NCBI GenBank assembly: GCA_036874045.1
Contig: CM072337.1
Span: 4,588,001-4,652,000, forward strand
Direction of reading: 5' to 3'
DNA length: 64,000 bases
From: Cymodocea nodosa
Lineage: Eukaryota > Streptophyta > Magnoliopsida > Alismatales > Cymodoceaceae
Under the pieces are notes generated by a model. That model was not told where the DNA came from. It made no database searches and saw only the letters and a program-made list of their open reading frames with translations. This document shows positions 30,293 to 61,516 of the stretch, in pieces (position 1 is the first letter of the stretch; each line of letters opens with the position of its first letter). The translations under genes and the position numbers were made by a program.

Positions 30293-30309
30293 AAATAAAT
30301 AGCAGAAGA

Positions 30310-33477: not shown

Positions 33478-33971
33478 GGAGTTACACAATAACACGGAAT
33501 TGCTCTGATTTCTACTGTTCTAGATTCTAAATGATTTACCGGATAATGCCCCCAAAACCCTAGGTTTTAGATAAAATAAGCCTTAAGTTTAGGTGGGTAA
33601 TCAGGTCATTTCCTGAACCAACTATTACTATCTCATCCGCGGTCTTAGCTATAGTACTCTGTTGAGTTACAGATAACTCAACGGAATAAGCTCGTTGACT
33701 AACTCAAGACTCAACGGAGTAAGCTCGTTGAGTTAGGCATAACTCAACGGACTTCTCGTCCAAATAGATATAATAATAAAAATACTATAGATAATAGTTT
33801 TTTCTATTTTTTTATCGATTTAACCGATACTATATTTCGATCAGACCTAATTTTTTTTCCAGTTGAACCGATACTATGTTTTAGTAAAACCAACATTTTT
33901 TTCTAAAAATTAATATACATATTTTTTATGTTTCGGTCATACCAATGGATCTAGTCGGTTGAACCATAACG

Positions 33972-34005
<34 letters not shown>

Positions 34006-34026
34006 AACATAAAAACTGATTTCTTA
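33478..34026 (-). other. Post-integrase spacer of element E
   Basis: CCGTTGAGTTA palindromes (33657-33755), TCGGT-type palindromes (about 33820-33970) and an (AT)n run (about 33985-34003). Equivalent to 46007-46597 of A. No ORF. Confidence 0.7.
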
Positions 34027-34465
34027 CTAAGTAAAGCTCGAGTAGTTCTCTACTATGACTTCTTCTATAATTCCAAAGGAGCTTTTTGGTGTTTTCAGAA
34101 TAGGTCTAAGTCTTTGCCCATTTACTTTAAATATATTCTGATTTTTAGGATTTTCAATTTCAATAGCTCCATAAGGATAAATATTTCGAACTATGTAAGG
34201 TCCTGCCCATCTAGATCTTAATTTTCCAAGATGGTTATGGAGTCTAGCCATATAAAGATATACTTCTTGTCCTATTTCAAAGCTTTTTGGAATAATTTTC
34301 CTATCATGCTAGAATTTCATTTTCTCTTTTTCTCTTACAGTCTTCGCATAAGCTTCATTTCTAAATTCTTCTAATTTAATTAGTTGCATTTTTCTATTTT
34401 TAGTAGCTTGATGTAAATTAGTGTTCAGAGTTTTTAATGCCCAATAAGCTTTATGTTCTATTTCA
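34027..34465 (-). pseudogene. Integrase C-terminal fragment of element E
   Basis: Encodes the end of integrase ([15 protein letters not shown]-like, then [20 protein letters not shown] and a VNGQRLRP block), ending near 34027. One TAG interrupts at about 34310. Homology to A's integrase stops at about 34465 within the IEHKAYW block. Everything 5' of this in E is missing, so the fragment marks the truncation point. Confidence 0.8.
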
Positions 34466-35125
34466 GTTGGTTAAGAATTAAATAATTGAATTGCATTTGA
34501 AGGGGTTAAGAATTAAATAATTGCATGAATTTTCATGGGTTTTTAGGTCAAGAGGTTATCTGTAAAAGCCCTTTTATTTCGGGCAATTTCATCAAGTATT
34601 GAGAAAGTTATGGTAGTTTTAGTTACCATTTGCAATTCTGTATTGTTAAACTACTGAATGCACGTCTGTGTTAATATGGGTGTTTACAGAGCTAGAGTTG
34701 TACTTAATATTTTTGAATGAAATCAATTCAACTTTCTAGTTGATCCATAGATGTTTCGATCTATAATTGTTATGTGATTTTATAAATAATAGGATGAAGT
34801 GTAAGTTCGAAGGAAATGAAGTAAAATCCTGTGTTTTCAGCCAAAATTTATAGCATAATATTCTTATGTAAGGATGAATAAATCATGTGTAAAGAGTATT
34901 TTGAAACAAACTTTGATCATATTTTCTAATCCCTGTTTTGGACTCCTTGGAAATATTTTGTAAAAGCCAAATCCTTGTGGATTCGACCTGTACTCGCCGG
35001 AGTATATTACAATTGCACCGTGCGCTTGCGGTTATTTTAAAATGAGTTTTGAGTTTATTGTTTTATCATTTTGGTCCCTTTGTGAGTTTTAAGATCTTAT
35101 TTTGGGGACAACAAAAACCTCAACA
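34466..35125 (+). repeat. 5' LTR of element D, right part (R/U5)
   Basis: Ends ACCTCAACA six bases before D's PBS. Contains the U5 block GGATTCGACCTGTACTCGCC ... GCACCGTGCGCTTGCGG (about 34980-35030), related to the GATCGACCTGTACTTGCAC block of A's LTR. No TG terminus occurs near 34466, so this is the continuation of 13021-14372 after E. Confidence 0.8.
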
Positions 35126-35131: not shown

Positions 35132-35149
35132 TGGCGCCGTTGCTGGGGA
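35132..35149 (+). promoter_or_regulatory. Primer-binding site of element D
   Basis: TGGCGCCGTTGCTGGGGA, one base from the common Athila-type site TGGCGCCGTTGCCGGGGA. Confidence 0.92.
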
Positions 35150-35906: not shown

Positions 35907-38900
35907 ATGGATGATTGGTCAAGCTAGGTTGATGAATATTATGGCTATGATGAAAATGATTTTATGCCATCATGCTTTTCTTGTTTTGCAAGTGATCATG
36001 TTACTAGTGAATGCCCAAATGATATGCTTCATGAACAAAATTCTAGCATGCCATGTAATGTATTAGAATATGAAAGTAATCATCTTCCATGCATGAAATA
36101 TGATTCATATATTCACCATGATTTACCTAATCATGCATATGCATCTACTAGTAAATCTGAAAATTCTTATCATGCATCTAGTATAGATCTAAGTGAAGGT
36201 ATAGATAAATTTAATGCAATTATGGACAGCATTGCTACAGAGAAATCTGTTAGTAGTTATAGTAAGAGTGTTTTTCATGCTGATCCAATTGATGTGGATG
36301 CAACATGTGATGACCTTGGAAAACAAATGGATGCATTTGTTACTTTAAGGTCAGGTAAGGAAGTGAGTAGGACTAGTGGTGAAATTCCTTTATCTATAAG
36401 TCCTCTAGAGCCTTGTTGCAATCCATCTGGAGTAGAAATTTCTGAAGATCCCATAGTTATCTCTAGAAGTGATAAGGGTAAGCAAGTAGCCGATGCTCCA
36501 TTAGAATCATCTACTAGTGCTCCTTACCCCACTAGACTTATAGTTGAATCAAGAGGAGACAAATTAGATAAGATTAGAGAAACCTTTGAGCAAGTGAGAG
36601 TGAACATACCTTTATTGGAATTAATTCAACAAGTTCCCTCACATGCTAAGTTCTTAAAAGATCTGTGTACTAAGAAGAGAGCTAGGAAGATACCTAAGAG
36701 TGTAAACTTAGCGGAAGCAAGTAGTTCTTATTTTTATGATTATATTCCTAGAAAGTATAGTGATCCTGGGACTCCTATATTTCATGTATTATAGGAAAAA
36801 CTACTTTCGAAGGAGCTTTATTAGACCTAGGAGCTGCAGTGAATGTTATGCCTTCTAGCATTTATGAAGAACTAGGGTAAAACTACTTGCAACCAACAAG
36901 AATAGTATTCCACCTAGCTAATAGATCTTTTAGGACACCTCTTGGAATAGTGGAAGACCTCCTGATTAAGGTTCAAGATTTTATATATCCTATAGACTTC
37001 ATAGTTATAGAAAACCGTCTCGTTATAGACCTTAAGAATAGTGCCTCATTAATTTTAAGTCGACCCTTTTTAGCAACAATTGATGCTTACATTGGTTGTA
37101 GGGAAGGTTTTATGCAGATCACCTGTAGAGATCAGAAGTCGCAATTAAATGTTTTTAATGTGGAAAGTGGCATGTAAGATCAATTAGAGGAAGAATTTGA
37201 AGTTAACCTGGTTGATGTGTTTGAAGAAGTTAGAGATTCTTTTGAAGAGGATGAAGCCAGCCTTAATGTTGAAAATGATGAAGACTATTTTTCGGTATCA
37301 AGTGATTTCAAAGATGACACTTTCATGGAGATCAAAGAAGCTAATCAAGTGGAAGTGGCTAAATCAAATGAAGTTGAGCTGGCAAAGCAAGCTCAACTAG
37401 AATTGAAACCGCTACCTGCAGATCTCAAGTATATATTTTTGGGAGAAAGTGAGAAGTGGCTTGTTATTATTTCTACCCATTTGACTAAGGATCAAGAAGC
37501 TCAATTAGTTGAAGTGCTTAAGGAAAATAGAAGAGCTAATGGAAGGACTATGGAGGATATTAAAGGAATAAGCCATTCTATTTGTACTCATAGAATTCAT
37601 TTGGATCCTAGTTATGCTCCATCTAGGCAACCTTAGAGAAGACTAAATGTAAATATTAAGGAGGTAGTAAGAAAAGAAATTTTAAAATGGCTAGATCATG
37701 ATATCATCTACCCTATTTCTAATAGTCCTTGGGTCAGCCCTATTCAGGTTGTTCCCAAGAAATCTGGTATTATAGTGGTTAGAAATGCTAATGATGAGTT
37801 GGTTCCCACTAGAATGCAAACCGGGTGGAGAGTATGCATTGATTATAGGAAATTAAACAATGCCACCCGTAAGGATCATTTTCCATTGCCCTTTATGGAT
37901 CAAATGTTGGAAAAATTAGCGAGGCAAGAATTTTATTGTTTTCTGGATGTTGCTTTAGAGGACCAAGAAAAGACAACATTTACTTGTCCTTTTGGAACTT
38001 TTACATTCCGGCGTATGCCTTTTGGATTGTGCAATGCGCCTACGACATTTCAATGCTGTATGATGGGTATTTTCTCAGATATGATTGAGAGATTCTTGGA
38101 AGTATTTATGGATGATTTCTCAGTATCAGGATCTTCCTTTGAATCATGCTTGGAAAATTTGAGAATGGTTTTGAAGAGATGTATAGAGAAAGATTTAGTG
38201 CTAAGCTGGGAAAAGTGCCACTTTATGGTAAAACGAGGAATTGTTTTAGGGCACACAGTTTCTAGTAAAGGATTAGAGGTGGATAAAGCAAAAGTGGATT
38301 TAATAGCAAACCTACCTCCACCTAAGACTGTTAGAGATGTAAGAGCATTTCTTGGCCATGCTGGATTTTATCGAAGATTTATTAAGGATTTCAGCAAGAT
38401 TGCTCAACCATTAAGTAGATTGTTAGCAAAGGACACCAAGTTTGATTTTTCTATAGATTGTGAAAAAGCATTTGTTAAGTTGAAAGAGGCTCTATCCTCA
38501 GCTCTTGTTGTTCATGTGCCTGATTGGTCCCATCCTTTTGAGCTGATGTGTGATGCTTCTGATTATGCTTTAGGTGCAGTTCTTAGGCAAAAGATTGATA
38601 AGCTTCCCAAAGTTATCTATTATGCAAGTAGAACATTGAATGATGCCTAGAAAAATTATACAGTAACAGAAAAGGAATTTTTAGCAATAGTGTTTGCCTT
38701 GGAGAAATTTAGACCTTATTTGGTTGGCTCACACACTATTGTTTATACTAATCATAGTGCCTTAAAATATTTGTTGGCAAAACAAGATGCAAAACCCCGA
38801 CTTGTGAGATGGATCTTATTGTTACAAGAATTTGATTTGGTAATTAAGGACAAAAGGGGTTGTGAAAATGTAGTTGCCGACCATCTATCAAGGCTATCTA

Positions 38901-39797
38901 TTGGAAATTCTTCTGAGATACCCATCAGTGATGTTTTTCCAGATGAGTAGGTATTATCTATTAGTGTTGAACCTTGGTATGCCAATATAGTAAATTATTT
39001 GGTTACAAAGAGAATACCACCCCATTGGTCTTCTATTGATAGGAAGAGATTTATATTGAAATGTAAAGATTATTATTGGGATGACTCGTACCTTTTTAAA
39101 GCATGATCGGATTTAATTGTGAGAAGGTGCATCCTAGATTCTGAAGTGCTTAGTGTTCTCTCTTTCTGTCATGATCAACCTGGGGGAGGGCATTTTGGTC
39201 CTGCAAAGATAGCTGCCAAGGTATTGCAGTGTGGTTTCTTTTGGCCAACTCTGCATAAGGATGCTTTTAAGTATTGTAAGCATTGCACAGCATGTCAAAA
39301 AGTTGGAAAAATGGGGAGAAGAGATTTGATGCCTTTGAACCTCGTGATTGCGATTGATACTTTTGATTTATGGGGTATCGATTTTATGGGTTCATTTCCA
39401 AACACTAGAGGCTATTTATATATTCAAGTAGTAGTGGATTACGTGACCAAATGGATAGAAGTAATCCCCACAAGATGTAACAGCAACAAGGAAGTATGTG
39501 CCTTTGTAAAATCAAATATATTTTCAAGATTTGGAGTGCCCAAAGATATAGTAAGTGATAATGGCACACACCTTTGCAATAGAAGTTTTGAGAACCTATT
39601 CAGAAAGAATGGAGTGACTCATAAACTTGCCACACCTTATCATCCTCAAACTAATGGGCAAGTTGAAAATACAAACAGGTTAATTAAGTAGATTCTAGAG
39701 AAATTGGTAAGTGCTACAAGAAAAGATTGGGTTGATAAAGTGGATGATGTTCTGTGGGCATACCGTACAGCATTTAAGACTAGTTTGGGTATGTCTC
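35907..39797 (+). pseudogene. pol: Zinc-knuckle/PR/RT/RNase H/integrase polyprotein of element D
   Basis: Opens at ATG 35907 (MDDWSS, TAG at 35925). A CCHC-like finger CFSCFASDHVTSEC follows at about 35973, then an acidic linker with FVTLRSGKEV. A frameshift near 36785 leads into protease (CIIGKTTFEGALLDLGAAVN, stop at 36878, then RPFLATIDAYIG). RT has WVSPIQVVPKK, VCIDYRKLN, FGLCNAPTTFQ and FMDDF (about 38105). The 27 bases encoding GYSGYNQIP after FCFLD are missing, so RT lacks a conserved loop. RNase H has CDASDYALGAVL. Integrase has CHDQPGGGHF, WGIDFMG, VSDNGTHL and GQVENTNRLIK. It is interrupted in the LGMS block by element A. Other stops: 37178, 37636, 38649, 38950, 39105, 39690. Confidence 0.92.
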
Positions 39798-41594
39798 TGT
39801 TTAGAATGAAAAAGTGCATATTATTAACGGTTAAATGATGGTTAATTGCATAATATTTAGCTTATCATATGAGAATTAAGCCATTATGTTATAATTGCAC
39901 TCTTATCTACTTTAATTGAAGAATCTGCTTAATTTTGGGGAATTAATGTTAATTTAGTACATTTATGAATTGTCGGTAAAATTGCAGGCTGTGAAATTCT
40001 TAAGTATCTGAAAATGCATCTGAGCATCGAATAGTTATACCTGTAACTCTCCAAAATGTTATTTTATGTTTAAATTGCTGCTGACACGTGTCGAGAGCTG
40101 GTAGATTTACTTAAGTTATAACTCGTTAAGTTAGCATAACTATACGCGTTGAGTTACATGAATATACACTAAGGTAACGCGTTAGGTTAGCGACTTATTT
40201 CTTTATTGCATGTATTTTATAGTTATTTTCCAAAATGCCACTGTAGCGGTTGTAGGAATAGACAGTTGGAAGGAAAAACCATGTTGGCACGTATAATGCA
40301 GGAATTCAATCGCACAGGGAGAAAGAAATCATCGCCGTTGATCTGAAGGAAGGAAATCCAACCGATCATTCAAGCAGAAGCAGTTACCACTAAAGAAATA
40401 CAAAAGAAAAGAAGAAAAAAAGAAGAAAGTGTGATCGATGGACGGTTAGTGTATACAAAGGAGGAGCACTGAGCTTTCTATAGACAGTATCGGCGATTCT
40501 CCGAAGTATCGCACCAACCATCGTATCACCACCATAATCACCAATCATCGGAGGTCTGTGAGGATACTTGCCTAATGTCGGGTCGATTCCAAGCCAAACA
40601 CAGTGCCTGACAACCATTGTGAGGAGTGATCGCGTCGCGGGAAGGGAAGACATTTACACCAAGCGCAGACTCATATTTCAGGAGATCGTAAAGCTTTTAG
40701 CCTTGGCTTCGGGTTGATGCCTGTATGCTGAAGAGGAGATCATCTTGCAATTTTGGACTCGCGATTCTATAGGGAGAGGAGACAAAATTGTAAGTGGTTC
40801 AATTTTCAGTGGTGTAATCACGTTGCAAGTAGTGTCGGAAGTATTTACTGTCAAGTGAAATTACTTTACATCTCACCTTTCGCCCATCACATAAAAAACA
40901 AAAATACCAAAAACAATTTATCTTTGTTTGTATGTTGTATTTGAGTGTTGTATTGTTGGTGTTGTATCGTGATTAATGTTATTTGTATCAGTTTTATGAT
41001 TGTCTTATGTTAGTTTTAATTTTATAGTTTACTGAAATTAGTTCGTACAAAACAACTTAAAGATTTTAATGGTTACTATTTGAATCATCTGAATGTTAGT
41101 ATTGTATAATGATAAATCCAATGTTAACTAGCATTAAAAAGCTTAATTGATGTTATTTACAATATGTGGAATCGCCTAATGGTTGGCTGAATTCCTATAT
41201 AATTAGCAGTATTATAAAGAAGAGACAGGCTCGTGGAGTTAACTTAAGTCCACGAGGATAGTCCGTTGAGTTATGCATAACTCAACGAACTTAGTCCGTT
41301 GAGTTAACTATAACTCAATAGAGTGCTTATTGAATATAAATTTGAATTGTTCACAATCAAACATTTCTTAAATTTGTCAGCAATTCCCTATGGGACCGAC
41401 CTATACTTGCACACTGATACAATAGACACTATGCACTTGTAGTTAAAGTACAAATTGGAATTAATATCTAAATTGTATTAAAGGTTGTTTGTTTACTTCT
41501 AAAAGAAAGAATAGGCATAAAGATAAATTAACTAAGTAAAAATAGAAGTAACAAATCCAAGTTTTTCTAGTGTAGTGCTGGAAAAACACGAACA
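39798..41594 (+). repeat. 5' LTR of element A
   Basis: TGTTTAGAATG...AACACGAACA, followed by the PBS after seven bases. Includes a G-box palindrome at 40083, the TAACTCAACG palindrome cluster (41230-41327), and the U5 block with GACCGACCTATACTTGCAC. It matches the 3' LTR at 54211 with scattered, mainly transition, differences. Confidence 0.95.
40083..40092 (+). promoter_or_regulatory. G-box/ABRE-type palindrome in A-family LTRs
   Basis: GACACGTGTC, a perfect 10-bp palindrome with an ACGT core of the kind bound by plant bZIP/bHLH factors. It is kept in the 3' LTR (54496-54505) and both LTRs of B (4872-4881, 11926-11935). Likely U3 enhancer; binding not shown. Confidence 0.55.
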
Positions 41595-41601: not shown

Positions 41602-41619
41602 TGGTGCCGTTGCCGGGGA
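41602..41619 (+). promoter_or_regulatory. Primer-binding site of element A
   Basis: TGGTGCCGTTGCCGGGGA, one base from the common Athila-type site and identical to B's. Directly followed by the (TTGAA)n tract. Confidence 0.93.
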
Positions 41620-41723: not shown

Positions 41724-42690
41724 ATGACATATGCTTATGCTCAAAGATTTCTGAAACCTTTAATTAGCATATGTGAATTCTGCAATTCTGAAGGACACGA
41801 CATTTCTAATTGTTTGAAATTGAGACATTTACAGATTGTTAGATCTCATGAACAACAAATGAATTATCCTCAATATAATAGAGCCGAGTATGAGAATCCT
41901 ATAGTTTACCCAACTGATGGTCAGTATAGAATGTGTAATATGATGAGAGACACTGAAGTTTGGGATAGCTATGACAGACTAGAGCATAGTATAGAGCAAA
42001 ATCTGGACAAACTGGAATACTTTGTGTGTCAACAACAAGAAGTCAACCAAGTAAACTATACGGAGGCATATTCAGAACCTAAATAGGATATAATTTACGA
42101 AACTGAAAAAGTCATAAAGAAAATTAATCAAAAATTGAATACAATGAAATTAGATGATCTGGAAACAAAATTAAAAGCATTAGACAAAAATGCAATGAAA
42201 ATACAAGTTTTGCAACAGGACAATGAAAATTATAATGTTATAAACCTGCACAACTTCCAAAATATACAACAAATAGAAAACACAAATGTAAGAGAATTTA
42301 AAGAATGCACTTTAAAACTAAAAACAATTGAAGATCATAATCACGAAAATGATATACAAAAACATCATGAAAGTAACGAAAATCTGGAAGATGTATGTGT
42401 AACATTAAGATCTGGAACTGATATACCACCAAGAACTTAAAATGAAAATGATATGAAGGTGGACAAGAGTAAAAATCAAAATGATAATGAAAATGTAATA
42501 GCTGAAAATTTAGAAATCACTGAAGAACAATCTGAATCTGTAATTGAAGCTAAAAATGATCAAACAAATCAACTGAAAGAAAAAGAGTCTTTGGAATCAA
42601 AATCTTTAGCACCCTATCCTAAAAGATTACAACAAACAATTCCTGAAAAACAAAAAAAAATAAGAGAAATTTTTGAAAAGTACAAGTTAA
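41724..42690 (+). pseudogene. Zinc-knuckle ORF at the 5' end of element A (capsid-less gag remnant)
   Basis: First ATG at 41724, about 100 bases after the PBS. The finger CEFCNSEGHDISNC (C-x2-C-x4-H-x4-C) starts about 17 residues in. A Gln/Asn/Lys-rich coiled linker and VCVTLRSGTDIPP follow, the latter matching FVTLRSGKEV of D just upstream of protease. In-frame stops at 42084 and 42438, then a frameshift at about 42685 into the pol frame. There is no capsid homology here. The ORF starts almost directly with the nucleocapsid-like finger, as in D. Confidence 0.82.
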
Positions 42691-45600
42691 CATTCCTTTG
42701 TTAGATCTATTGCAGAATATGCCACCTTGTGCTGAATTTCTGAAGGATTGGTGTACTAAGAAAAGAGAGCGAAAAGTCCTTAGAAAGGTCTTTTTAGCAA
42801 CATCAGGGGCTGTTATAAATTGTAAAACTGGAGTAATGAAGTTAGCATATGGTAATGAGGATACTCAATTAAATATTTTCAAACCAGAAAGGTTTGAGGA
42901 GTTAGAAATGTCCTTACATAACATAAACTTTTTAGAGGATGAAGGAGATATGTTAGATGATGTGATTCAAGAAGAATTAAATAGGCAAATCAATTTTGAA
43001 ACTTTAGAAGAAAGTGAAAGCATAAATATAGAAGGAGATCAGGAAGAAATTAATTTAAAACATGATGATGTTCAATTAGGAGCTCTAGCTTCTGATGGGC
43101 AGCATTTAGAATTAAAACATTTACCTCCTGAATTAACCTATATATTTCTGGAAGACAAACGGACCTGTCCAATCATTATTGCTTCAGATTTGAAAGAGGA
43201 TCAAATTGCTAAATTAAAAGAGGTAATAAAAAGTTATAAATAAGCAATAGGATGGACTATGACTGATATAAAAGGGTTAAGTTCAACTTTATGCTGTCAC
43301 CACATATATTTAGAAGAGAATGCTAAACCTGTTAGAATTCCTGAGAGAAGATTAAATCCAAACCTTAAGGAAGTAGTCAAGAAGGAAATAGTTAAATGGT
43401 TAGATAATGATATAATATATCCGATTTCTGATAGCTCATGGGTTAGTCCAATCCATGTAGTTCCCAAGAAATTAGGATTAACAGTTATTACGAATGAAAG
43501 TCAAGACTTGATACCTACTAGAATTCAATCAGGCTAGAGAATATGTATAGACTATAGAAAACTGAATGCTGTGACTAGGAAAGATCATTTTCCCTTACCT
43601 TTTATGGATCAAATGCTGGAAAGATTAGCAGGTCAAGAATATTTTTGTTTCCTAGATGGGTATTCAGGGTATAATCAAATTCCAGTAGCATTAGAGGATC
43701 AAGAGAAAACAACTTTCACCTGTCCTAATGGAACTTATGCTTTTAAAAGAATGCCATTCGGATTATGCAATGCACCAGCTACCTTTCAAAGGTGTGTGCA
43801 GGGCATATTTACTGGAATGACTGATGAATTTTTAGAAATATTAATGGATGATTTTACTGTATATGGCAACTCACATGAAGTGTGTTTAAGCAATTTAGAC
43901 CAAATATTAAAACGTTGTGTGGAAAAAAATCTGGTTTTAAATTGGGAAAAATGTCACTTCATGGTTAAACAAGGAATAGTCTTAAGGCATGTTGTTTCTA
44001 AAAAAGGGTTGGAAGTAGATAAAGCTTAAATAGAAGTAATTTCTAATCTACCAGAACCTAAATCAGTAAAAGATATTAGATCATTTCTAGGACATGCTGG
44101 TTTTTATAGAAGATTTATTAAAGACATTAGCAAGATAGCTAGACCTTTAACTAATCTATTAAAAGATGTTCCATTTAACTTTGATAAAAATTACAAGGAA
44201 GCATTTTTTAGACTTAAGACTAGCTTAATTTCAACTCCTATAATTCAAGCACCTAATGGGAAACATCCATTTGAATTAATGTGCGATGCTTCTGATTTTG
44301 CTGTAGGAGCAATGTTAGGACAGAAAATAGAAAAATCTCCTAGAGTGATTCATTATGCAAGCAAAACCTTAAATGATGCTCAAGTTAATTACACAACTAC
44401 TGAAAAAGAATTATTAGCTGTTGTGTTTGCTTTAGAAAAGTTTAGATCATATTTGATTGGAGCTAAAGTAATAGTATACACGGATCATTCAACTCTAAAA
44501 CATCTAGTAAAAAAAAAAGAAACTAAACCTAGATTGATCTGATGGATATTATTATTGCAAGAATTCGATCTAGAAATTAAAGATAAAAAAGGTTGTGAGA
44601 ATGTAGTAGCAGATCATTTATCAAGATTACAAATAGAAAAATCAAATATTGAAATTAAGGATAATTTTCTTGATGAACAATTAATGACCATCAATACAAT
44701 GCCTTGGTATGCAGACATAGTTAATTACTTAGTTACTAGTTTAACACCTAAGGATTGGAATAGACAGGATAAGAAATTGTTTTTCTCAAGAGTAAAATAT
44801 TACTATTGGGAAGACCATTACTTATTTAAGAAATGTCCTGATCTGGTTTTAAGGAGGTGTGTTCTAGAAACTGAATATTCGAGCATATTGTCTTTCTGTC
44901 ATGACCAAGCTTGTGGAGGACATTTTGGTTCAGGGAAAACTGCTGCAAAAATTCTACAATGTGGGTTTTATTGGCCGACACTATTCAAATATGCTCATAA
45001 ATATTGCTTAAGTTGTTTAAGATGTCAACAAATAGGAAGAATATCAAAGAGGAATATGATGCCTTTAAATCCTATTGTTGAGGTTGAAATCTTTGATGTG
45101 TGGGGAATAGATTTTATGGGTCCATTTCCTATATCTAGTCAATTTAATTACATATTGTTGGGAGTGGATTATGTATCTAAATGGATAGAAGCTATTCCTA
45201 CAAAAACTAACAATAACAAAGTGGTAATACAATTTATAAGAACAAATATATTTGCCAAATTTGGAATACCTAAAGCTATTATCAGTGATAGAGGAACTCA
45301 TTTCTATAATAGAAGTTTTGAAGCCTTAATGAAGAAATATGGAGTAAACCACAAAATTGCAACATCATATCATCCGCAAACAAGTGGACAAGTAGAAAGT
45401 GCAAACAAACAAATTAAATTAATCTTGGAAAAAGTAGTAAATCCTACTAGAACAGATTGGGCTAATAGATTGATTGATGCACTTTGGGCTTATAGAACTA
45501 CTTATAAAACGAGCTTAGGTATGTCACCTTTTAGGCTAGTATATGGAAAAAGTTGTCATTTACCTATTGAAATAGAACATAAAGCTTATTGGGCATTAAA

Positions 45601-46006
45601 AACTCTAAACACTAATTTAAATCAAGTTGCTGAAAATAGGAAAATGCAACTAATTGAATTAGAAGAATTTAGAAATGAAGCTTATTCAAAGACTGTAAGA
45701 GAAAAAGAGAAAATTAAATTTTGGCATGATAGAAAAATTATTCCTAAAAACTTTGAAATAGGACAAGAAATATATCTTTATATGGCTAGACTCCATAACC
45801 ATCCAGGAAAATTAAGATCTAGATGGGCAGGACCTTACATAGTTTGAAATGTTTATCCTTATGGAGTTATTGAAATTGAAAATCCTAAAAATCAGAATAT
45901 ATTTAAAGTAAATGGACAAAGACTTAAACCTATTCTGAAAACACCAAAAAGCTCCTTTGGAATTATAGAAGAAGTCAAAGTAGAGGACTACTCGAGTTTT
46001 ACTTAG
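42691..46006 (+). pseudogene. pol: pol of element A: PR remnant, RT, RNase H, integrase
   Basis: Single frame with six in-frame stops (43241, 43535, 44027, 44540, 45845 and the final 46004). The protease core is deleted: NWCTKKRERK-like sequence joins directly to FLATSGAVINCKTG, the C-terminal end of the domain, so the catalytic D-[LS]-G segment seen in D is absent. RT has WVSPIHVVPKK, ICIDYRKLN, FLDGYSGYNQIP, FGLCNAPATFQ and LMDDF (about 43841). RNase H has [12 protein letters not shown] and DHSTLKHL. Integrase has [10 protein letters not shown]...[33 protein letters not shown], then a C-terminal domain with [13 protein letters not shown]. Stop 43535 is TAG for the Trp present in D. Confidence 0.93.
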
Positions 46007-46597: not shown

Positions 46598-48817
46598 ATG
46601 ATGAAGATGACGCCTGAATTCTGGGAAGATGTTGTTGATACATCAGAATTTCTGAAGGAATCAGAAGAGTGGCACACGCGGCAGAAGATCAGAAATACGA
46701 CAAGAGAGAAAGAGCTACAAAAGGTAGAATCAGAACTTTTCAAGTTGAGAAGAGATTTAGTAGATATGGAGATACGAATACCTCAAATGATGGAAACACG
46801 AATCAGAGTGGCAACTGAAATTGCAGTAAGTAAAGAAAGACAAATAAGGCCAAGTAACGAAGTTGCCCTAGAATTAATCCAGCGTAAGTCCCAACTCTGG
46901 TTCAAAAGAAGAATCTGTAGACAAGCTAAACGGGTGATCTAGGAGCAAGAAAGGAAAGCAGAGGAAGAGGCAACTAAAGAATGGGAGGAACCAACTGCTG
47001 AAAGACCTATTTTTGAGGAGCAGCAGCCTAGACCTTCAGTTCCACCATTTAAGCCGTTGGCACGAGCAGAAATGATGGGGCCTACGACTGAAGAAGAAAT
47101 AAGAGAATTTGCAGAACTGGTTCAAGTTGAGAAGAACCAAGGAGAATCAGAAGATTTGGCAGTGGCTAAAGCACACCTAGTGTTTGATGCACTGTACAAA
47201 AAGAGGGCTGTAGAAAAGTTGAAAGCCCAATATAAAATTAAAGTGGAACAACATCAAGAAGCTACTACCAGAACTGCTGCCAAATCTACTGCAAAAGAAG
47301 CTAAAGCTGGTCCTTCGATACCAGTAGTTATAAAAAAAGTTAAACAGGAAGAGCCAGTACCTGTGGCTCGAAGGCTTGCAGAGCCTATTTTTATAGATTT
47401 AATTTCAGAAGATGAAGAGGAAGAACAGGCACAACTAATTAGAAAAAAGAAAGGAAAATAAAAAGTGCCTGAATTTGAGGAAATTAAATTTGAAGTACTA
47501 ATTTTTACAGGGCCTGTGGAGTAGATTTTTATTAACTTGCTATCCGATTCTGAGGAGGAGCAAAGAAAAGAAGAAAATCAGGCTGAAATTAGTCTACAGC
47601 CTGTACAAGAAGAAACAGAAATTAGGGCAGAAACTGAATTGCCCGTGACTCCATCCCAATCTGTTACAGAATCAGAAAGAACAGTAACAGAACAAATTGG
47701 TAGTCAAGAGGAAGAAGAAAAAGTAGAAAATGAAGAGGCTGAAAGAAGCCATTTGGACAAAAATAATTTCACAGATTCCATTGAAGAGCAAGAAACTCTT
47801 TAGCAAATTATGGAAAGAATTCAAGACAGAGTGGAGAGTTCTGCCGGCTCACCACCATAGACAGAAGCAAAAGCAAAAAGTCAGGAATCTGAAGAGAATG
47901 TCCAAATACAGCCTATGCTAGAGGAAGAGCAAGAGCAAACCCCTCTAGAGCAACAAAGTCACCTTCCTGACCCAACTGAAACAACAATTTTGAATGAAGT
48001 ACATTTTTGTAGTCAGGAAGCGTATATCAAATACCAAGAAATAAGAGGTTACGATATTATTTACAGTAGACCAGTAAATTGGGATGGAATGCAAGAAATC
48101 AAAGATCTATTTGAATTCCAAGGTCTACTACAATTTATATCTCAAGATAGAGGGCATGCAGTATATGAGAATTTAGTGCCCTATTTTTATGCAAATTTAA
48201 GAGAAGGAGAAGGAGAATTAATTTCAAATGTGGAGGAAGCTGATGTACAGATAACACTAGAGCTTCTCCACAACATATTTGGTTTAAAGAATGAAGGAAC
48301 AAAAATTTTGGAGGATACAACTGTAGTTGAATGGACTAAGCAGCAAATTAAGAATTGTTTAGCTATCAATCCTACTGTGCCATTATTAAACAGATTGAAG
48401 CATTTAAATGGTAAAGCACACATGGTAGCTAACATTCTAATTAAGAATGTCTATCAACGACAGGTCCATGACATAGAATTAAGTCAATTTGTCAAATGGG
48501 CCACGTATGCAGTTGTAAATAAGTTCCAAATAAATTGGTCTGCAGTTTTTATCTCCAAGCTGAAAATAGTAAAGAAGAAATTATTTTATGGAGATTTGAT
48601 TCCACTGCTGATGGTAGACTGTATCGATTTCACTAAATAGACATCAAAAAGGATAAGATCTAGAACCATTTCAGTGAAAGAATACAAAAATTTTGTAGCT
48701 GCAGAACTAGTAGTACCTTCTAGAGGAATTACAGGAGCTATAGAGAGGATTAATCAATTAGAGCAACAATTAGAAAAACTCCAGAAGGAAGTAGATGAAC
48801 TTAGGCATAGAGATTAA
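46598..48817 (+). pseudogene. 'Putative plant transposon protein'-like ORF of element A
   Basis: One frame from ATG 46598 to TAA 48815-48817, about 740 codons with in-frame stops (46940, 47459, 47522, 47801, 47858, 48638). The N-terminus is coiled-coil with Glu/Arg-rich helices. The middle is an acidic low-complexity linker with EDEEEEQAQL. The C-terminal domain runs from about 47990 (NEVHFCSQEAYIKYQEIRGY, YSRPVNWDGMQEI, ENLVPYFYANLREGEGE, LNGKAHMVANILIKNV, WATYAVVNKFQINWSAVFI). It ends in a coiled coil. This fits the domain found downstream of integrase in Athila-like elements, sometimes called env-like. I see no signal peptide or transmembrane segment, so envelope function is not supported. 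Confidence 0.75.
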
Positions 48818-49773: not shown

Positions 49774-51110
49774 ATGAGCACATGGACTCGTTCTCTAAGC
49801 ACTAAACGATTAGTAAGAACACCTATCCAGGAATTTTCATTGCAGAGAAGTACTGAAAAATTTTCTGAACTAAACTTTAACAAAATTCTTTGGGGTGTAG
49901 CTAACCTTTCTTTAAAAGAGAAAGTAGAGATGACTGCTCTAGTAGAAAAACCATTAGGAGAGATTCTGTATCCAGAATTAATTGATGAACCTTCATGTAT
50001 TCGATTGCCAAACTTTGAGGGAGATAGGTTTGAACTGAAATCTAATTATATTAGTCAATTTCCACATTTTCATGGATTAGAAAGAGAGGATGCCTATTAT
50101 TTCCTTAGAGAATTTAACGAAGTTTGTCAAATGATGAGAATGCCGAACATGAGTATAGATGCTATTAAACTTAGATATATCCCTTTTGCTTTAAAAGATA
50201 CACCTAAGAGATGGTTATATACTCTGTCGCCTGATTCAATTTCTACATGGACTGAATTTTACTCTGTTTTTCTGGAAAAATACTATCCAACACATCAAAC
50301 GATTAAAAAGAAGAAAGAAATATTAATGTGTAGCCAAAAACAGGGTGAATCATTTTGGAAATATTTTAAAAGATTTAAAGATTTACTGACTCAATGTCCA
50401 CATCATGCAATGAGTAAAGCACAATTAATAGGCATAATTTATGAAGGCATAGATGTTTCAACGAAATCTTTATTAGAATCTACTTGTCAAAATGGATTTT
50501 TAAAATTATGTAGTGAAGAAGCATGGGCATATTTAGAAAATTTTGCAAAAAGAACTACACAGTGGGAAAATTCGACTAAAGCTATTGCAGATAAAAGATT
50601 ATTGCCAAGAGGAATGCATGAAATAGACTCCAATACTATGCTTGAGGTGAAATTAAATGAATTAACAAAGAAAATAGAAGAGTTATCATTAAATCAAAAG
50701 CTAGCAGAAAAGAATACAAACATAAATGACTTAGATATTATTTATGCTAGAAACTAGAGAGATAACTTGGGAAATTCTTATAATCCTAATTGGAGAAATC
50801 ACCCGAATTTATCTTGGAGAAACAACAATTTCCAGGGAGGAGAAAATATAAATGAGAAGAACATAAGTTATGAAGTATTAATTGAACAAGGAGCTAGAAT
50901 AGAGAAATTATAATCCAACAAGTAAACAATCGTATAGAATTTATATTTGGAAATGCTGTAAATCAAAATCAGAATAGAAATATACCACTTAGACAGAAGG
51001 AACCAATGGAAGTTAGACCTACTAGAGGATTGCCAATACAACCTATACCTAATCCTGCCAATAGAACGGTTAATGAAATTGATACCTCTTCTGGGAGGGT
51101 AGCTGAATGA
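49774..51110 (+). pseudogene. gag: Capsid-like gag ORF of element A, downstream of integrase
   Basis: ATG 49774 to TGA 51108, interrupted by TAG at 50755 (CAG in B) and a short frameshift near 50910. About residues 60-250 form the retrotransposon gag core: PSCIRLPNFEGDRFELKSNY, FHGLEREDAYYFLREFNEVC, KLRYIPFALKDTPKRWLYTL, EKYYPTHQTIKKKKE, GESFWKYFKRFKDLLTQC, IIYEGIDVSTKSLLEST. A coiled coil (KLNELTKKIEELSLNQKLAEK region) and NPNWRNHPNLSWRN follow. It lacks a zinc knuckle, which instead lies alone at 41724. In canonical gypsy elements this region precedes protease; here it lies about 3.8 kb after integrase. Confidence 0.9.
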
Positions 51111-51174: not shown

Positions 51175-51296
51175 TATCGTAGAGTTAATTTTTAACTCAA
51201 CGAACTTAGTCCGTTGAGTTATGTCTTAACTCCACGAGGGTGTGCAGTAGTTATGTTAATTTTTGTCTTTGCTAAATTTTTGTTTTTATTTTACAG
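51175..51296 (+). promoter_or_regulatory. Palindrome block and splice-acceptor-like site before the F-box ORF
   Basis: CGTTGAGTTA/TAACTCAACG arms at 51175-51240, then a U-rich tract ending TTTTATTTTACAG at 51296, nine bases before the F-box ATG. The acceptor-like sequence is identical in B (complement at about 8047-8062), which suggests a spliced subgenomic RNA. No transcript evidence. Confidence 0.5.
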
Positions 51297-51305
51297 AATC
51301 GACAA

Positions 51306-52445
51306 ATGGAATTAATGCAATTACCGTTGGATGCACAAAGGGAAATACTAAGTAACTTGTCAGCTAAAGATCTGTGCAGGATGTATTGTGTATCAAAGGA
51401 AATTAAAGACTGTATTGAAGAAGAATATTTTCAGGGACTACAAGCTGCAAAAATGACTAAGATTAGAGATGGATTCATATGGAGGTCATTTAATCGTAGT
51501 TCAAATACCCATGAATATCTGGCTATGGAAGAAACTACTGGAATTCCAACTAATGCATTAGAAGGAATGAGTCATATTATGGGGATAGATGAAGGATTAA
51601 TCATATACAAAATGAGACCAAGGTATGCAAGTTTATCATTACCTAAGATTTTGATAAGAAATCCTATAACAGGAGAAGAATGTAATATAGGAAGACCTAA
51701 TATATTTGAAGCACCAACTGAAAATTGTGGGTCAGCTTTAATATTTTCTGATAAAAATTCTGCAATTCCTGAAAAATTATATTATTGGAGACCTATAGGA
51801 AATTGGGGTGAAGATTTACGCTTAAGTGTGTATAATTTTCTGAACAAATCTTGGAATGAAAACATTATAATATATCTAGGACAAAAATCATTAATTAACC
51901 AAACACATGTCATACTTGATGGTTATATTTATTTAGTCACGGAGATATCAATAGCATATAGATCTGATTTATACATAGTTAGCATAGACAATTATGATGA
52001 TTATACAGAAATTTTACTTGTACCGAGTGAAATAGCTAAACCACCATCTGAAAAATTTAATAAAATTCAAATAGGAATGTGGTATAATGAAGAAGATGAT
52101 CCTACTTTATGTCTGATAAGATGGTGGGATGAACTGATGAAATTTCAAATATGGATTATGGAAGACATGAATGAATGGAAGTGGGAAGAGGAATATATTG
52201 AAATAGATGTAGAAATAGAAACTGCTACATTACCCTGGAACCAAAAAGGATCCCTTTCTACATTACATATCATTAATGGTAATACACTCGTATTTGGAAT
52301 TTATAATATAGTGCATGTTTACAAATTAAAAAGGACCAAGAACTACATTAAAACAGAATTAATAGCAAGAAGAACTATGCCTAAAAAGTTTGCTTAGACT
52401 AATACATTTATTCCATTTGTTTCTACTTTTCAATCATGTTCTTAA
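51306..52445 (+). CDS. F-box protein carried by element A (captured plant gene)
   Basis: 379 codons with one in-frame TAG at 52395 (TGG in B and E) near the end, so 363 codons are open. About residues 4-45 form an F-box: LPLDAQREILSNL, LSAKDLCRMYCVSKEIKDCI. About residues 90-200 resemble the plant F-box-associated type (a SHIMGIDEGLIIY block, RNPITGEECNIGRP, LYYWRPIGNWGEDLR). A C-terminal block has EEDDPTLCLIRWWDELMKFQ. In plants the F-box binds SKP1/ASK in SCF ubiquitin ligases and the C-terminus selects the target; this family-level role is inferred. It lies in sense between capsid and 3' LTR, with counterparts in B and E at the same place. Confidence 0.82.
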
Positions 52446-54210: not shown

Positions 54211-56008
54211 TGTTTAGAATGAAAAAGTGCATATTATTAACGGTTAAATGATGGTTAATTGCATAATATTTAGCTTATCATATGAGAATTAAGCCATTAT
54301 GTTATAATTGCACTGTTATATGCTTTAATTGAAGAATCTGCTTAATTTTGGGGAATTAATGTTAATTTAGTACATTTATGAACTGTCAGTAAAATTGCAG
54401 GCTGTGAAATTCTTAAGTATCCGAAAATACATCTGAGCATCAGATAGTTACACCTGTAACTCTCCTAAATGTTATTTTATGTTTAAACTATTGCTGACAC
54501 GTGTCGAGAGCTGGTAGATTTACTTAAGTTATAACTCGTTAAGTTAGCATAACTATACGCATTGAGTTACATGATTATACACTAAGGTAACGCGTTAGGT
54601 TAGCGGTTTATTTCTTTATTGCATGTATTTTATAGTTATTTTCCAAAATGCCACTGTAGCGGTTGTAGGAACAGACAGTTGGAAGGAAAAACCACGTTTG
54701 CACGTATCATGCAGGAATTCAATCGCATAGGGAGAAAGAAATCATCGCCGTTGATCTGAAGGAAGGAAATCCAACCGATCATTTAAGCAGAAGCAGTTAC
54801 CACTAAAGAAATATAAAAGAAAAGAAGAAAAGAAGAAGAAAGTGTGATCGATGGACGGCAAGTGTATACAAAGGAGGAGCACCGAGCTTTCTGCAGACAG
54901 TATCGGCGATTCTCCGAAGTATCACACCAACCATCGTATCACCACCATAATCACCAATCATCGGAGGTCTGTGAGGATACTTGCCTGATGTCGAGTCGAT
55001 TCTAAGCCAAACACAGTGCTTGACAACCACTGCGAGGAGTGATCGCGTCGCGGGAAGGGAAGACATTTTCACTAAGTGTCGACTCATATTTCAAGAGATC
55101 GTAAAGCTTTTAGCCTTGGCTTCGGGTTGATGCCTGTATGCTGAAGAGGAGATCATCTTGCAATTTTGGACTCGCGATTCTATAGGTAGAGGAGACAGAA
55201 TTGTAAGTGGTTCAATTTTCAGTGGTGTAACCGCATTGCAAGTAGTGTCGGAAGTATTTACTGTCAAGTGAAATTACTTTACATCTCACCTTTCGCCCAT
55301 CACATAAAAAACAAAAATACCAAAAACAATTTATCTTTGTTTGTATGTTGTATTTGAGTGTTGTATTGTTGGTGTTGTATCGTGATTAATGTTATTTGTA
55401 TCAGTTTTATGATTGTCTTATGTTAGTTTTAATTTTACAGTTTACTGAAATTGGTTCGTACAAAACAACTTAAAGATTTTAATGGTTACTGTTTGAATCA
55501 TCTGAATGTTAGTATTGCATAATGATAAATCCAATGTTAACTAGCATTTAAAAGCTTAATTGATGTTATTTACAATCTGTGGAATCGCCCAATGGTTGGC
55601 CGAATTCCTCTGTAATTAGTAGTATTATAAAGAAGAGATAGGCTCGTCGAGTTAACTTAAGTCCACGAGGATAGTCCGTTGAGTTATCCATAACTCAACG
55701 AACTTAGTCCGTTGAGTTAACTGTAACTCAACAGAGTGCTTATTGAATATAAATTTGAATTGTTCACAATCAAACATTTCTTAAATTCGTCAGCAATTCC
55801 CTATGGGATCGACCTGTACTTACACACTGATACAATAGACACTATGCACTTGCAGTTAAAGTACAAATTGGAATTAATATCTAAATTGTATTAAAGGTTG
55901 TTTGTTTACTTCTAAAAGAAAGAATTGGCATAAAGATAAATTAACTAAGTAAAAAATAAAAGTAACAAATCCAAGTTTTTCTAGTGTAGTGCTGGGAAAA
56001 TGCGAACA
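54211..56008 (+). repeat. 3' LTR of element A
   Basis: 1798 bp, TGTTTAGAATG...AATGCGAACA, preceded by the PPT and followed by target duplication GTCTC. CGTTGAGTTA palindromes at 55643-55736; GACACGTGTC at 54496-54505. Confidence 0.95.
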
Positions 56009-56486
56009 GTCTCCTTATAGAGCTGTATATGGAAAAGCGTGTCACTTACCAGTAGAGTTGGAACATAGGGCCATGTGGGCCATTAAAAAGCTGAATTTAG
56101 ATTTTAAGGTAGTTGGAGATAAAAGGAAATTTGAATTGAATGAGCTAAAAGAGTTAAGGAATGAAGCATATGAAAACGCTAAGATTGCTAAGGAAAGAGC
56201 AAAAAAATTTCATGATAAAAGAATTTTAAGAAAAGAGTTTCAATAGGGCCAACGAGTTTTGCTATATAACTCTAGACTCCACCTTTTTCCAGGAAAGTTA
56301 AAATCTAGGTGGAATGGCCTATTTGTTGTAAAGAGAGTCTACCCTTATGGAGCAGTGGATATTGAACATCTTAAAGATAGGCAAGTGATGAAGGTTAATG
56401 GCCAACGTCTCAAACTATTTCTAAATAAGGCAAATTTGCGAAAAGCAGGTAGTGTAAATTTGTGTGAAGTAGAATATAGTAGTTAA
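56009..56486 (+). pseudogene. pol: Integrase C-terminal part of element D, after the A insertion
   Basis: Resumes the integrase frame after the duplicated [23 protein letters not shown] and a [20 protein letters not shown] block. A TAG at 56244 (Gln/Trp position before [12 protein letters not shown]) is followed by [23 protein letters not shown] and TAA at 56484. It is clearly the same reading unit as 35907-39797. The C-terminal domain parallels that of A. Confidence 0.9.
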
Positions 56487-56745: not shown

Positions 56746-58056
56746 ATGCATCAAGGAGTGTGGAGGAGAACTGAAGCAAATAGGTTAGAGCATTGTCAAC
56801 CTCTTATAGAACCTGTTAACCCTCCACCACTACATCAAATGGAAGATCAAGGAAGAGTGCTAGCAGATGTGTGGTATCCTCCACAATTTGACCAACCATC
56901 TTGTTTTGTGCTTCCAAATGTGGAAGGACAAAAGTTTGAGTTACACTCAAACTACATCTATTAATTGCCAAAGTTTTTAGGGTTGGAGAGAGAAGATGTC
57001 TACCTGTTTCTACATGAATTTAATGAGATATGTAGGCTAATTCATTTGCCTGATGTACCTGTAGATGCAACAAAGCTAAGATTTATTCCCTTTGCACTTA
57101 AGGAGGATGCTAAGAGGTGGATGTATAGTTTACCTCCTAACTCAATCCGTTCTTGGGAAGAATTCTGCAAGGTCTTTCTGAAGAAATATCATCCTCTATA
57201 TCGCACCATCCAACTTAAAAACGCTATTTTAAGTATTCAACAAAAGCCGGATGAGTCTTTTTGGCGATATATGGAGCGCTTTATGAATTTATTAGCTAGA
57301 TGCCCAAACCATGGAGTTGACAGGGCAAGGCAGACCCAAACTATCTATGAAGGTTTGAACATGCAATCAAGAACCATGTTAGAGTCCATGACTCCTAGTG
57401 GTTTTTGTCGATTAAGAGAGAATGCTGCTTGGGAATTTCTACAAGAGCTTGCCGACCGCACAATGCAATGGGAGACATACTCAGACAAGACTTTTGATAG
57501 GTCTACACCTGCTCAAGGACTTCATGCAGTCGACAACATTATTAGCATGGAAGCGAGATTACAAGCTACTTTGAAAAAAATTGAAGAATTACAACCATAT
57601 GAGGATGTACAAGCTATGGGGTCTGGAATGAGGAACAACCAATATTATAACCCTAGATGGAGAAACCATCCTAATTTTAGTTGGAGTAACCAAGATTATT
57701 TGAGAGAAAATGCACTAGAGCAACATCATTTTGGAACCAGTTCGAGTCGGCAGCCCCAACTACAAGTTCCTGCCCTTCCTGCACCAAACACGTAGTCAAA
57801 CATTAATGCTGATATGGAATGTAGAATGGCGAAAATGGAGGAAGGGATTCAAACTTTATTAACTAAGATGGGACCAATGCTAGCGAAGCACTCTCAAGCA
57901 ATCAAAGGAATTGAGGCTTAGTTAGAACGTTTATCTGTTGGAAACCGGGAGCGTGGATCTTTGCCAAGTCAGACGGCACTGAACCCAAGAAATGCTAGTG
58001 GTAGTAACCAGTTTGGAGGACACACGAACGCAAGCTCGAGTGCCCCTCCATCTTGA
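56746..58056 (+). pseudogene. gag: Capsid-like gag ORF of element D, downstream of integrase
   Basis: ATG 56746, TGA 58054. Core motifs parallel A: QPSCFVLPNVEGQKFELHSNY, FLGLEREDVYLFLHEFNEIC, KLRFIPFALKEDAKRWMYSL, DESFWRYMERFMNLLARC, TIYEGLNMQSRTMLESMT, then coiled coil and NPRWRNHPNFSWSN. Stops at 56962 (TAA, CAA in A), 57793 and 57919. The last about 85 codons form another helical segment (MAKMEEGIQTLLTKMG). No zinc knuckle; that is at 35973. No F-box or transposon-protein ORF follows. This second family with capsid after integrase rules out a one-off rearrangement. Confidence 0.9.
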
Positions 58057-59858: not shown

Positions 59859-61141
59859 TGTAGAGTCATAATTTATGCATATTTTATATAGTTAAGTGAT
59901 GCATTTTAGATGTTTAAAGTCATATACTCATAAGTGTTTAATGAAGATTTAAGTTATAATGCATCTTGGGCAAATAATGTAGTTATAGGCTTAAATGAAG
60001 AAAGTATTGCATAAATGAGACTCTATTTGTTATTTAGCATTTCATGAAAACACATTTACATCTTGGTGGCAATGTAATTGCATTTTATTAAGTAGATTAA
60101 ATTTACTTTAGCACTTAGGATCAATTATTTAAATAAGTACACGAGTATTTCTGGAATTCAATGAAAAATGTGATTTTTGGCCCTTTTGAAGTATCCATGT
60201 CTAGGAATATATCTTATCTTATTTCTTTAGTATTTTGATGTATTTGTTTAAGTTTTAAAGGTTGAAGAATAAGAAAAATAAAGCAAATCAAGTTAGGAGG
60301 AATTTTGGCCCTTGGATTGAAGATCAAGGATGGAGATCAAGCTCCACCACTTGGAGCCTCTATAAAAGGAGGGGCAAGGCCAACATTCCAGCCCTCTCTC
60401 TCATGGGGCTGCCCTCTCATTCCTGCAAGTCGTCAGCTGCAAAAACTCCTTCAAGACCTTGTGGAAGGTGGTGCTCTCCCCCCTCTCATGAAGCTCCAAG
60501 TGGTGGAAGCAAGGTTCGGCCAACCTCTTCTTCTCCTCTCTTGGTGGTTGCTGGTAGGAGGACGGCTAGGGCACTCTTTCTAGACCTTGTGGGTGCTGTG
60601 TGGAACACATTTTCAGCTGTGCAACTGTCTCCCTTCTTCCATGGATCACTCCTTGTAGAAGAAAGGCAAGGGTTGTGGACTTGAGGTGGATGACTCATTG
60701 TTCTTGGTGTTTGGTGTTGCTTGAAGACCTCCTACTTTCAGAAGAGAACTCGTGTGGTGACAACCACGAATTTCTTGGCTAAGAGGACGGCTAGGAGCAA
60801 ATCTCTTGTAGCATTCTTCTCCAAAGCAAGCTTGGACTTAAAGGTAAAAAGGATTGAAGTGGTTGAGCTCTCTAGGTTTTCATTCCTTTGTGTAGGTTGT
60901 GTTTGTTGTAATTTCAGTAGGTTACTAATAATTTTTAGATGTTGTAGTTGTAGTTTTAGATGTAGTTTTAATGTTACATTGTAGTTTAATCATAGAACTT
61001 TAATTTCAGTAGCTTATTATGTTTAGTTTCAATGAATGAAAGCAAATTTTGGTTGAATCTTGTGAATGTGTGAATGAATGTACATAGTTCCTTTTGCTTA
61101 TGTATGATATTACTAATCTGATGATTAACCCCATTTGTATA
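59859..61141 (+). repeat. 3' LTR of element D, interrupted
   Basis: Starts TGTAGAGTCATAATT after the PPT and matches 13021-14303 closely. TATA box TATAAAAG at 60361-60368. Identity stops after CCATTTGTATAT at 61141-61142, where element H begins. The U5 part is not in the window. Confidence 0.88.
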
Positions 61142-61516
61142 TGTGATGCGTGTGTCTTCCATCAAGTATATGTATGTGTCATTGTATATGGTTGTATTTC
61201 TTTGATAATTTGTACAGGGGCAAACTTATCTTTTGGGTATCACCAACTATTGCCCCTATATATGTAAGGGGTCATCCACGTCCAAGGAATGTCATACCAA
61301 ACCATCCCATGATTTCGTTCTCCCCCATCTTTGTACCAACAACCATACAGCAAGGAATCACGATAGATTGATCACCTGTAGACGTACCTATGTTGGGGGA
61401 ACCACGTTAATTTGTTGTTGTTCCGAATTCTCCACTCGCAATCCTCTCTTCCACATAGATCTCTTCTCCACGCCACCCCTAGATGCTCCACGTTTGTTTG
61501 ATCTTTCCGCAAAACA
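61142..61516 (+). repeat. Putative 5' LTR of element H, with degenerate PBS
   Basis: Candidate TGTGATGCG...GCAAAACA, 375 bp. It has a TATA box (TATATATG, 61257-61264). Two bases after the end, TAGTATCAGCAC (61519-61530) resembles the copia site TGGTATCAGAGC with three changes. The second LTR is outside the window, so the borders are unproven. Confidence 0.4.

Follow-up and report, generated by a model that had tools for sequence, protein, structure and literature searches.

The window, i.e. the complete stretch of 64,000 nucleotides from Cymodocea nodosa that was analysed (contig C5, 4588001-4652000; the genome surveyed comprises 374.6 Mb in 28 contigs), is heavily filled with nested LTR elements, as revealed by self-comparison (Table 1). 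Element A is inserted inside the integrase (INT) of element D, whose coding region picks up again at 56009. The LTRs of element A have TG...CA termini and are bordered by a perfect 5-bp duplication, and between them are found a zinc knuckle, a protease (PR) remnant, reverse transcriptase (RT), RNase H (RH), INT, an extra ORF, gag and an F-box ORF. The active-site part of the protease appears to be missing from this copy. The gag frame is broken into 49753-50757, with the match to Pfam PF03732 (Retrotrans_gag), and 50898-51110, with the gag-end motif; unbroken A-family gag frames are present in other copies. Element D displays the order PBS, knuckle, PR, RT, RH, INT, gag, purine tract and 3' LTR. 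Its PR-RT-RH-INT part covers 36881-39691 and is then broken by the insertion of A, its gag ATG lies 260 nt past the pol stop, and the capsid frame extends over 56965-57795. The first part of its 5' LTR agrees at about 86% with that of a complete D copy elsewhere in the genome. The PBS of these elements is of a type that we take to be tRNA-Asp.

Table 1. Features of the retroelements in the window (L numbers, other loci in the genome)
Feature	Position	Strand	Basis
A-family copy: LTRs, gag (8589-9590), F-box, no pol match	3322..12219	-	self-comparison, homology
Element D 5' LTR, first part (interrupted)	13021..14306	+	95.8% identity to 59859-61145
Truncated A-family copy: integrase C-terminus, extra ORF, gag, F-box, 3' LTR	24178..34474	-	self-comparison, homology
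Element D 5' LTR, last part	34934..35125	+	94.8% match to LTR end in L031
Element D primer-binding site	35132..35149	+	PBS match
Element D pol start: zinc knuckle (35973) and LRSG junction	35928..36794	+	motif pattern; no Pfam match in profile search of the frame
Element D protease region	36881..37177	+	weak Asp_protease_2 match in the homologous frames of L017 and L010
Element D reverse transcriptase and RNase H	37637..38950	+	RVT_1 E 4.7e-21
Element D integrase, first part	39107..39797	+	rve E 5.4e-18
Target-site duplication of A, left, GTCTC	39793..39797	.	sequence read; inside D integrase
Element A 5' LTR	39798..41594	+	95.8% identity to 54211-56008; TG...CA
Element A primer-binding site	41602..41619	+	three PBS matches in window; shuffles 0/100
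Element A pol start with zinc knuckle CX2CX4HX4C at 41772	41724..42086	+	motif pattern, ORF; no Pfam zinc-knuckle match in profile search
Element A protease-linker region	42677..43243	+	43 residues match family F query (42671-42799)
Element A reverse transcriptase and RNase H	43385..44677	+	homology to family queries
Element A integrase frame	44543..45847	+	rve E 1.7e-13, H2C2 E 1.1e-11
Element A extra ORF	47861..48640	+	weak PF20167 (Transposase_32), E 1e-4, below cut-off
Element A gag, 3' of integrase	49774..51110	+	PF03732 E 4.7e-19; gag-end motif
Element A F-box ORF, 3' of gag	51276..52397	+	PF00646 E 1.4e-7
Element A 3' LTR	54211..56008	+	95.8% identity to 5' LTR; purine tract just before
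Target-site duplication of A, right, GTCTC	56009..56013	.	sequence read
Element D integrase, C-terminal part, past the A insertion	56009..56486	+	homology, frame
Element D gag, without knuckle	56746..57795	+	ATG at 56746; PF03732 E 3.3e-22
Element D 3' LTR (partial)	59859..61145	+	purine tract before; 95.8% identity to 13021-14306

An earlier note on this DNA had placed a capsid downstream of integrase in both elements, and had proposed a search with gag profiles as a check. Both frames are matched by PF03732; the interval given for A fits, apart from the break in this copy, and for D the knuckle as well as the gag are confirmed at the positions listed. The further statement that two other elements of the window, B and E, agree can be upheld in part. 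The reverse-strand copy at 24178-34474, taken as E, contains the integrase C-terminus, gag and the F-box ORF, whereas the copy at 3322-12219, taken as B, is a gag-only derivative of family A that has no match to pol and cannot testify.

The extra ORF of family A is located between integrase and gag, where the env-like ORFs of Athila sit, and displays a dN/dS of 0.13-0.15 in the most diverged pairs. The F-box ORF, a captured gene of host type, is found between gag and the 3' LTR in 8 of the 9 A-family copies examined and, with a dN/dS of 0.37-0.47 in the most diverged pairs and 0.55 pooled, looks mildly constrained. Stretches of the A spacer (45848-49774) repeat a motif located near the 3' end of the element's own LTR.

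Order of integrase and gag across the genome

A genome-wide search with PF03732 yielded 4640 candidates, of which the best 150 were scored. For 20 of the 22 top rows (omitted were the window's own match and one row on C1 tied in score with an included row) the surrounding 10 kb was read and domains were mapped by tblastn, the protease region of element D serving as one of the queries. The integrase was found upstream of the capsid and on the same strand in 19 of these 20 loci, which belong to families A (6), D (9) and F (5), and neither PR nor RT was found in the 3-4 kb past the capsid. In the remaining locus, L023, no integrase lies within the stretch; the extra ORF is located upstream and the F-box ORF downstream of the capsid. 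Four further loci, picked as divergent or long-framed (L036 and L042, family G; L043, family H; L044, family I), all have integrase followed by gag, L042-L044 being read about 1-1.5 kb past the capsid. Taken over the loci read beyond the window, the integrase precedes the capsid on the same strand in 23 of 24, and none has PR or RT past the capsid within the sequence read. At least six families (A, D, F, G, H and I) show the gag-last order, G and H being close sisters. In L036 a deletion joins integrase to gag in one frame of 917 codons.

The coordinates of integrase matches (best 92 of 14606 candidates) were also compared with those of capsid matches on the same strand within 9 kb, the latter being taken from two listings (137 matches, and the first 64 of the PF03732 list). 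The nearest listed capsid lies downstream for 55 of the 56 integrase matches that have a partner, at a distance of 402-660 nt in 52 of the 55 pairs, and upstream for one. The other 36 of the 92 have no partner among the matches listed and are uninformative; for 3 of the 92 a capsid is found on the opposite strand. In the lone upstream pair (L045) gag reaches its own end and is followed by a D/G-like 3' region, and no PR or RT match is found in the stretch before the next integrase, which indicates that this gag belongs to a neighbouring element. For family A the best 97 integrase matches gave 9 pairs with capsids of the PF03732 list, all of them downstream (1756-4737 nt), and 88 matches without a partner among those listed.

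The nearest relative with a canonical gag-protease frame is the database protein P0005 (ENA), together with its kin. It is 38% identical to the A gag query across 85% of the latter's length and has the same type of N-terminus and the gag-end motif (residues 423-432); for its near-twin fragment P0003 the identity is 48% over the capsid part. Unlike in the families studied here, the gag of P0005 runs into LRSG (starting at residue 454) and protease in one frame. When P0005 was compared with the genome, 67 of 67 matches (best 67 of 12198 candidates) ended at residues 417-443, i.e. all scored matches stop at the gag/pol junction. A fused canonical copy with comparable identity should outscore them, and none is present among the best 67; rare canonical copies may exist beyond the best 67 to 150 of the 4640 to 14606 candidates in these searches. 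As a control, database relatives of canonical order (P0005, P0069, P0074 and P0081) were indeed read as canonical. Four loci with a chromovirus-type protease (RVP_2) were also read, and in one of these a capsid-looking piece without a Pfam match lies upstream of the protease; none of the four gave a convincing example of canonical order in this genome.

Complete copies of families A, D and F have matching LTRs, a PBS after the 5' LTR, a purine tract before the 3' LTR, perfect 5-bp target-site duplications (TSDs), and gag last. On C1, the LTRs of the D copy measure about 1.9 kb (95-99% identical in pieces) and the duplication is ATAGG; for the F copy, which lies on C9, the LTRs measure about 2.6 kb (95-96% in pieces) and the duplication is CTACA. 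Since these copies are bounded by LTRs and TSDs, the three families must have moved as units with gag last. The D copy (L031/L017/L032) sits inside an A-family gag gene. On C17, the 3' end of one F element lies ahead of the 5' LTR of a second, in a head-to-tail-like arrangement (L029 1-756 with L010).

Because the survey of the same genome shows the same order, chance or assembly error is very unlikely. The earlier note had held that relatives with capsid upstream of PR, or a recombinant origin of these copies, would speak against its reading, and had called for full-length relatives between matching LTRs. The latter have gag last in A, D and F, with 5-bp TSDs; the former are absent from the best 67 of 12198 P0005 candidates; and the presence of the order in at least six families argues against a recombinant one-off.

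The downstream gag and the head of pol

The E-values for PF03732 in the frames tested (7e-19 to 2e-22) rule out that the capsid is a chance match or a misannotation. A structure model of an A-family gag reached a mean pLDDT of 59.5, highest in the helical capsid part. With this model Foldseek ranked Arc and PNMA2 capsids, which are Ty3-derived, at 1-10 (best E 4.5e-3), followed by HIV and Ty3 capsids from rank 11, no E-value being below 0.001. A sequence scan of the F gag against viral contigs gave no match.

In families F, G, H and I the downstream gag consists of the capsid, a CX2CX4HX4C knuckle, a block resembling NPxWRNHPNFSW, the gag-end motif and a stop. The knuckle is recognised by pattern in 4 of the 5 F copies and is degenerate in L014, and the gag-end motif is worn in family I. 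In the gags of families A and D the block after the knuckle is kept and the knuckle itself is absent (it was not found by pattern in 6 A and 9 D loci), so that only pol carries the finger there. Intact or worn, the gag-end motif closes the downstream gag wherever the end was read (A, F, G, H and I). At the other side D, G, H and I have in common a conserved N-terminal stretch that includes an ATG in frame, and the N-terminus resembles that of the canonical-type proteins P0001, P0003 and P0005; the three F copies in the alignment are without the conserved ATG. The gene that is placed downstream is, as read from these motifs, the entire gag and not the capsid alone. In this respect the proposal of the earlier note, that gag had been split into a downstream capsid and a nucleocapsid fused to pol, has to be abandoned: F, G, H and I keep a knuckle in gag, and the one in pol is additional.

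In the families whose pol start was read (A, D and F), pol opens with this additional knuckle and a linker before LRSG, and in D and F the frames begin close to the knuckle and are not preceded by a capsid. In a small pairwise test the pol starts of D and F resembled each other at an E of about 1e-5, and the D pol start gave collinear matches, short and weak, to the nucleocapsid-linker-LRSG region of P0005 (E 0.039 and 0.004). We read the pol-head knuckle as a possible remnant of the old nucleocapsid.

Database proteins related to these elements were compared in two trees; their label as Athila-type is assigned from sequence motifs. In the capsid tree (32 rows, with 25 of 62 database gag matches chosen by length) the seven rows of the present families form one clade (100/99), one of them, I_L044a, covering just 28% of the capsid columns. 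In the RT tree (28 rows, with 23 of 80 usable database rows picked by hand) the five own rows, from families A, D, F (twice) and G, likewise form one clade (97/91); families H and I were left out. Since a single clade is found in the trees, the gag-last order probably dates back to the time when the families diverged.

For the most diverged pairs the dN/dS of gag was 0.23-0.29 in family A, 0.10 between G and H, and 0.04-0.05 in family D, where dS is saturated. In family D the corresponding values were 0.10-0.14 for RT and 0.15-0.18 for INT. The substitution pattern of diverged pairs thus shows gag evolving as expected under purifying selection, in the range of the D RT and INT, and gag has probably been constrained ever since the families split. 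Pooled values were higher (family A: gag 0.45, INT 0.47; family F: gag 0.55, INT 0.46, RT 0.60). Recent copies show little constraint, in gag as in the INT and RT of the same families, which is expected if most copies are dead.

Origin of the gag-last order

The families very likely represent one Athila-related lineage of the Ty3 type, in which a single ancient relocation took the whole gag gene from ahead of the protease to behind the integrase; we infer both the singularity and the age of this event. The layout of the lineage would be LTR-PBS-pol (PR-RT-RH-INT, with an N-terminal knuckle in A, D and F), an extra ORF in A, gag, an F-box ORF in A, purine tract and LTR.

How the relocation came about is an evenly balanced matter with respect to duplication, whereby a second gag would have been gained in the env position, the upstream copy would have lost its capsid, and the pol knuckle would be what is left of the old nucleocapsid. 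The presence of knuckles in both the pol head and the downstream gag of family F fits this course of events, as do the ordered matches between the D pol start and P0005. These matches are weak, however, an intermediate with two capsids was not seen, and the same layout could result from tandem copies in which the position of the LTR had changed. Such a shift of the LTR predicts a remnant of LTR or PBS between integrase and gag; the spacers of D, F, G, H and I showed no recognisable one, giving only short T-rich matches and PBS scores that were equalled in 64 to 298 of 300 shuffles.

That the downstream gag is merely an accessory gag-derived ORF (a decoy, or a replacement of env), with particles being formed from a canonical Gag supplied in trans, seems improbable to us. 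The A and D gags do lack a knuckle, and Arabidopsis retains Athila elements with gag only or with gag+env, as excerpted from PMC2410132. However, the canonical gag-PR fusion that would have to provide the particles is absent from the best 67 of 12198 candidates matching P0005, the gags of F, G, H and I do have a knuckle, and the selection on gag in diverged pairs is like that on RT. Finally, recombination, nested insertion or misassembly could place a foreign gag behind an integrase, and the window is heavily nested and the neighbour effect real in 1 of the 56 coordinate pairs, but the order in 23 of 24 other loci, the near-constant distance between integrase and gag, the LTR- and TSD-bounded copies of three families and the concordant gag and RT clades make this extremely improbable, and for the lineage as a whole the coordinate pairs, with the neighbour explanation of the single exception, rule it out.

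Production of Gag and relation to known systems

As the earlier note had foreseen for the downstream capsid, Gag needs a translation route of its own: gag and pol are in separate frames, and the gags of D, G, H and I have their own conserved ATG. The spacers between integrase and gag span about 200-330 nt in D, F, G, H and I and contain about 4 to 7 ATGs ahead of the gag start. Splice acceptors were scored within 300 nt of that start with a weight matrix. The best acceptor is located at -94 in two D copies and at -84 in G, positions that align within one column, whereas that of F (-76) lies about 16 alignment columns away from the D/G site; in H it is found at -4, and families I and A have none within the 300 nt. 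For acceptors at most 30 nt from the start, shuffles as good were obtained in 0 of 500 cases for H and in 98 to 500 of 500 for the others. The splice donors in the leader are weak. Translation of Gag from a spliced mRNA is, on these predictions, no more than a best guess, with odds clearly below even.

We give a somewhat better chance, a little short of even, to an internal promoter transcript, or to re-initiation or an IRES on the genomic RNA. The splice evidence is weak, with acceptors that align in D and G alone and that near the start are mostly no better than shuffles, and the spacers are T-rich, which speaks for the non-splicing routes. Against this stand the ATGs in the spacers and the kilobases of spacer in family A, and on account of these re-initiation or leaky scanning is unlikely.

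With the relocated gag, we infer that Pol is made without any part of Gag, that a separate RNA, perhaps spliced like that of retroviral env, serves for Gag and provides its AUG, and that Pol enters the particles without a Gag-Pol fusion, perhaps via RNA bound by its own knuckle. A more far-reaching reading, which we hold to be rather unlikely in its full form, is that this pol-first lineage has given up the Gag-Pol fusion as a strategy: the genomic RNA would be translated into Pol, Gag would come from its own RNA, and the RNA-binding knuckle by which Pol is packaged would have allowed the A and D Gags to lose theirs. This would be convergent with the strategy of the foamy viruses, in which, following the excerpted text of PMC3705302, Pol is made without a Gag-Pol fusion and its packaging requires genomic RNA. 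Similar to those viruses, Pol is encoded here without Gag in frame (D and F pol frames); in contrast, gag lies upstream in the foamy viruses and Pol comes from a spliced RNA, whereas here gag is last and splicing is hypothetical. We claim no homology past the common retroelement core.

In a database search both gag and pol match plant retrotransposon proteins, in line with a relation to Athila-type elements. With Athila, Calypso and Diaspora the present families share long LTRs, the PBS type, the CX2CX4HX4C finger, homologous RT and gag, a 3' extra ORF (family A) and a long leader (D and F). They differ in that gag is a separate gene past the integrase and pol starts without a capsid. The published comparisons that follow refer to excerpts of the papers cited. 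Diaspora, Athila and Calypso are described as having a single gag-pol ORF, Diaspora with the same finger (PMC1142308), and REXdb gives GAG-PROT-RT-RH-INT for Ty3/gypsy (PMC6317226); of this order, as it applies to the Athila lineage, the PR-RT-RH-INT part is retained, but GAG comes last. In the ICTV profile of the Metaviridae (gag, pol and env) gag is first and env is located past the integrase (PMC7879559), and Gymny of pine is canonical, with gag (603-1114) before int (4811-5893; PMC2633040). A Ty3/gypsy precedent for an altered domain order is Gmr1, where it is the integrase, not gag, that has been displaced, to a Ty1/copia-like place (PMC2774666); in the families studied here the integrase follows RT and RH. 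The gag-only copy at 3322-12219 resembles the gag-only Athila elements of Arabidopsis in having gag without pol, although, unlike those non-autonomous elements, the present families retain pol, upstream of gag (PMC2410132). The excerpted part of PMC8556966 contains nothing on domain order. In the open-licence papers searched, no description was found of a Ty3 element with gag after the integrase, and the remark of the earlier note that it knew of no such lineage holds to that extent. The lineage is Athila-related, yet outside the Athila domain order, and its layout is without a recognised description in that literature.

Among the pol relatives in the databases (best 120 of 3707), 46 have a gag tail before LRSG, 54 have none by pattern and 20 lack an LRSG match; on visual inspection, the majority of the 54 either carry a gag tail missed by the pattern or begin too near LRSG for a verdict. 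One protein, P0082 (759 aa, JGI), has LRSG without a recognisable gag tail before it, its placement in the RT tree being supported at 51/36, and may be another gag-last relative elsewhere. Since the REXdb survey of plant LTR elements discarded those of unexpected order 'in every case' as likely mispredictions, according to the excerpt (PMC6317226), gag-last lineages may be under-reported.

A successful gag-last lineage implies that the gag-first order is not required, and that the ratio of Gag to Pol can be set by means other than one frame, frameshift or readthrough. It also provides a natural test case for the packaging of Pol without Gag.
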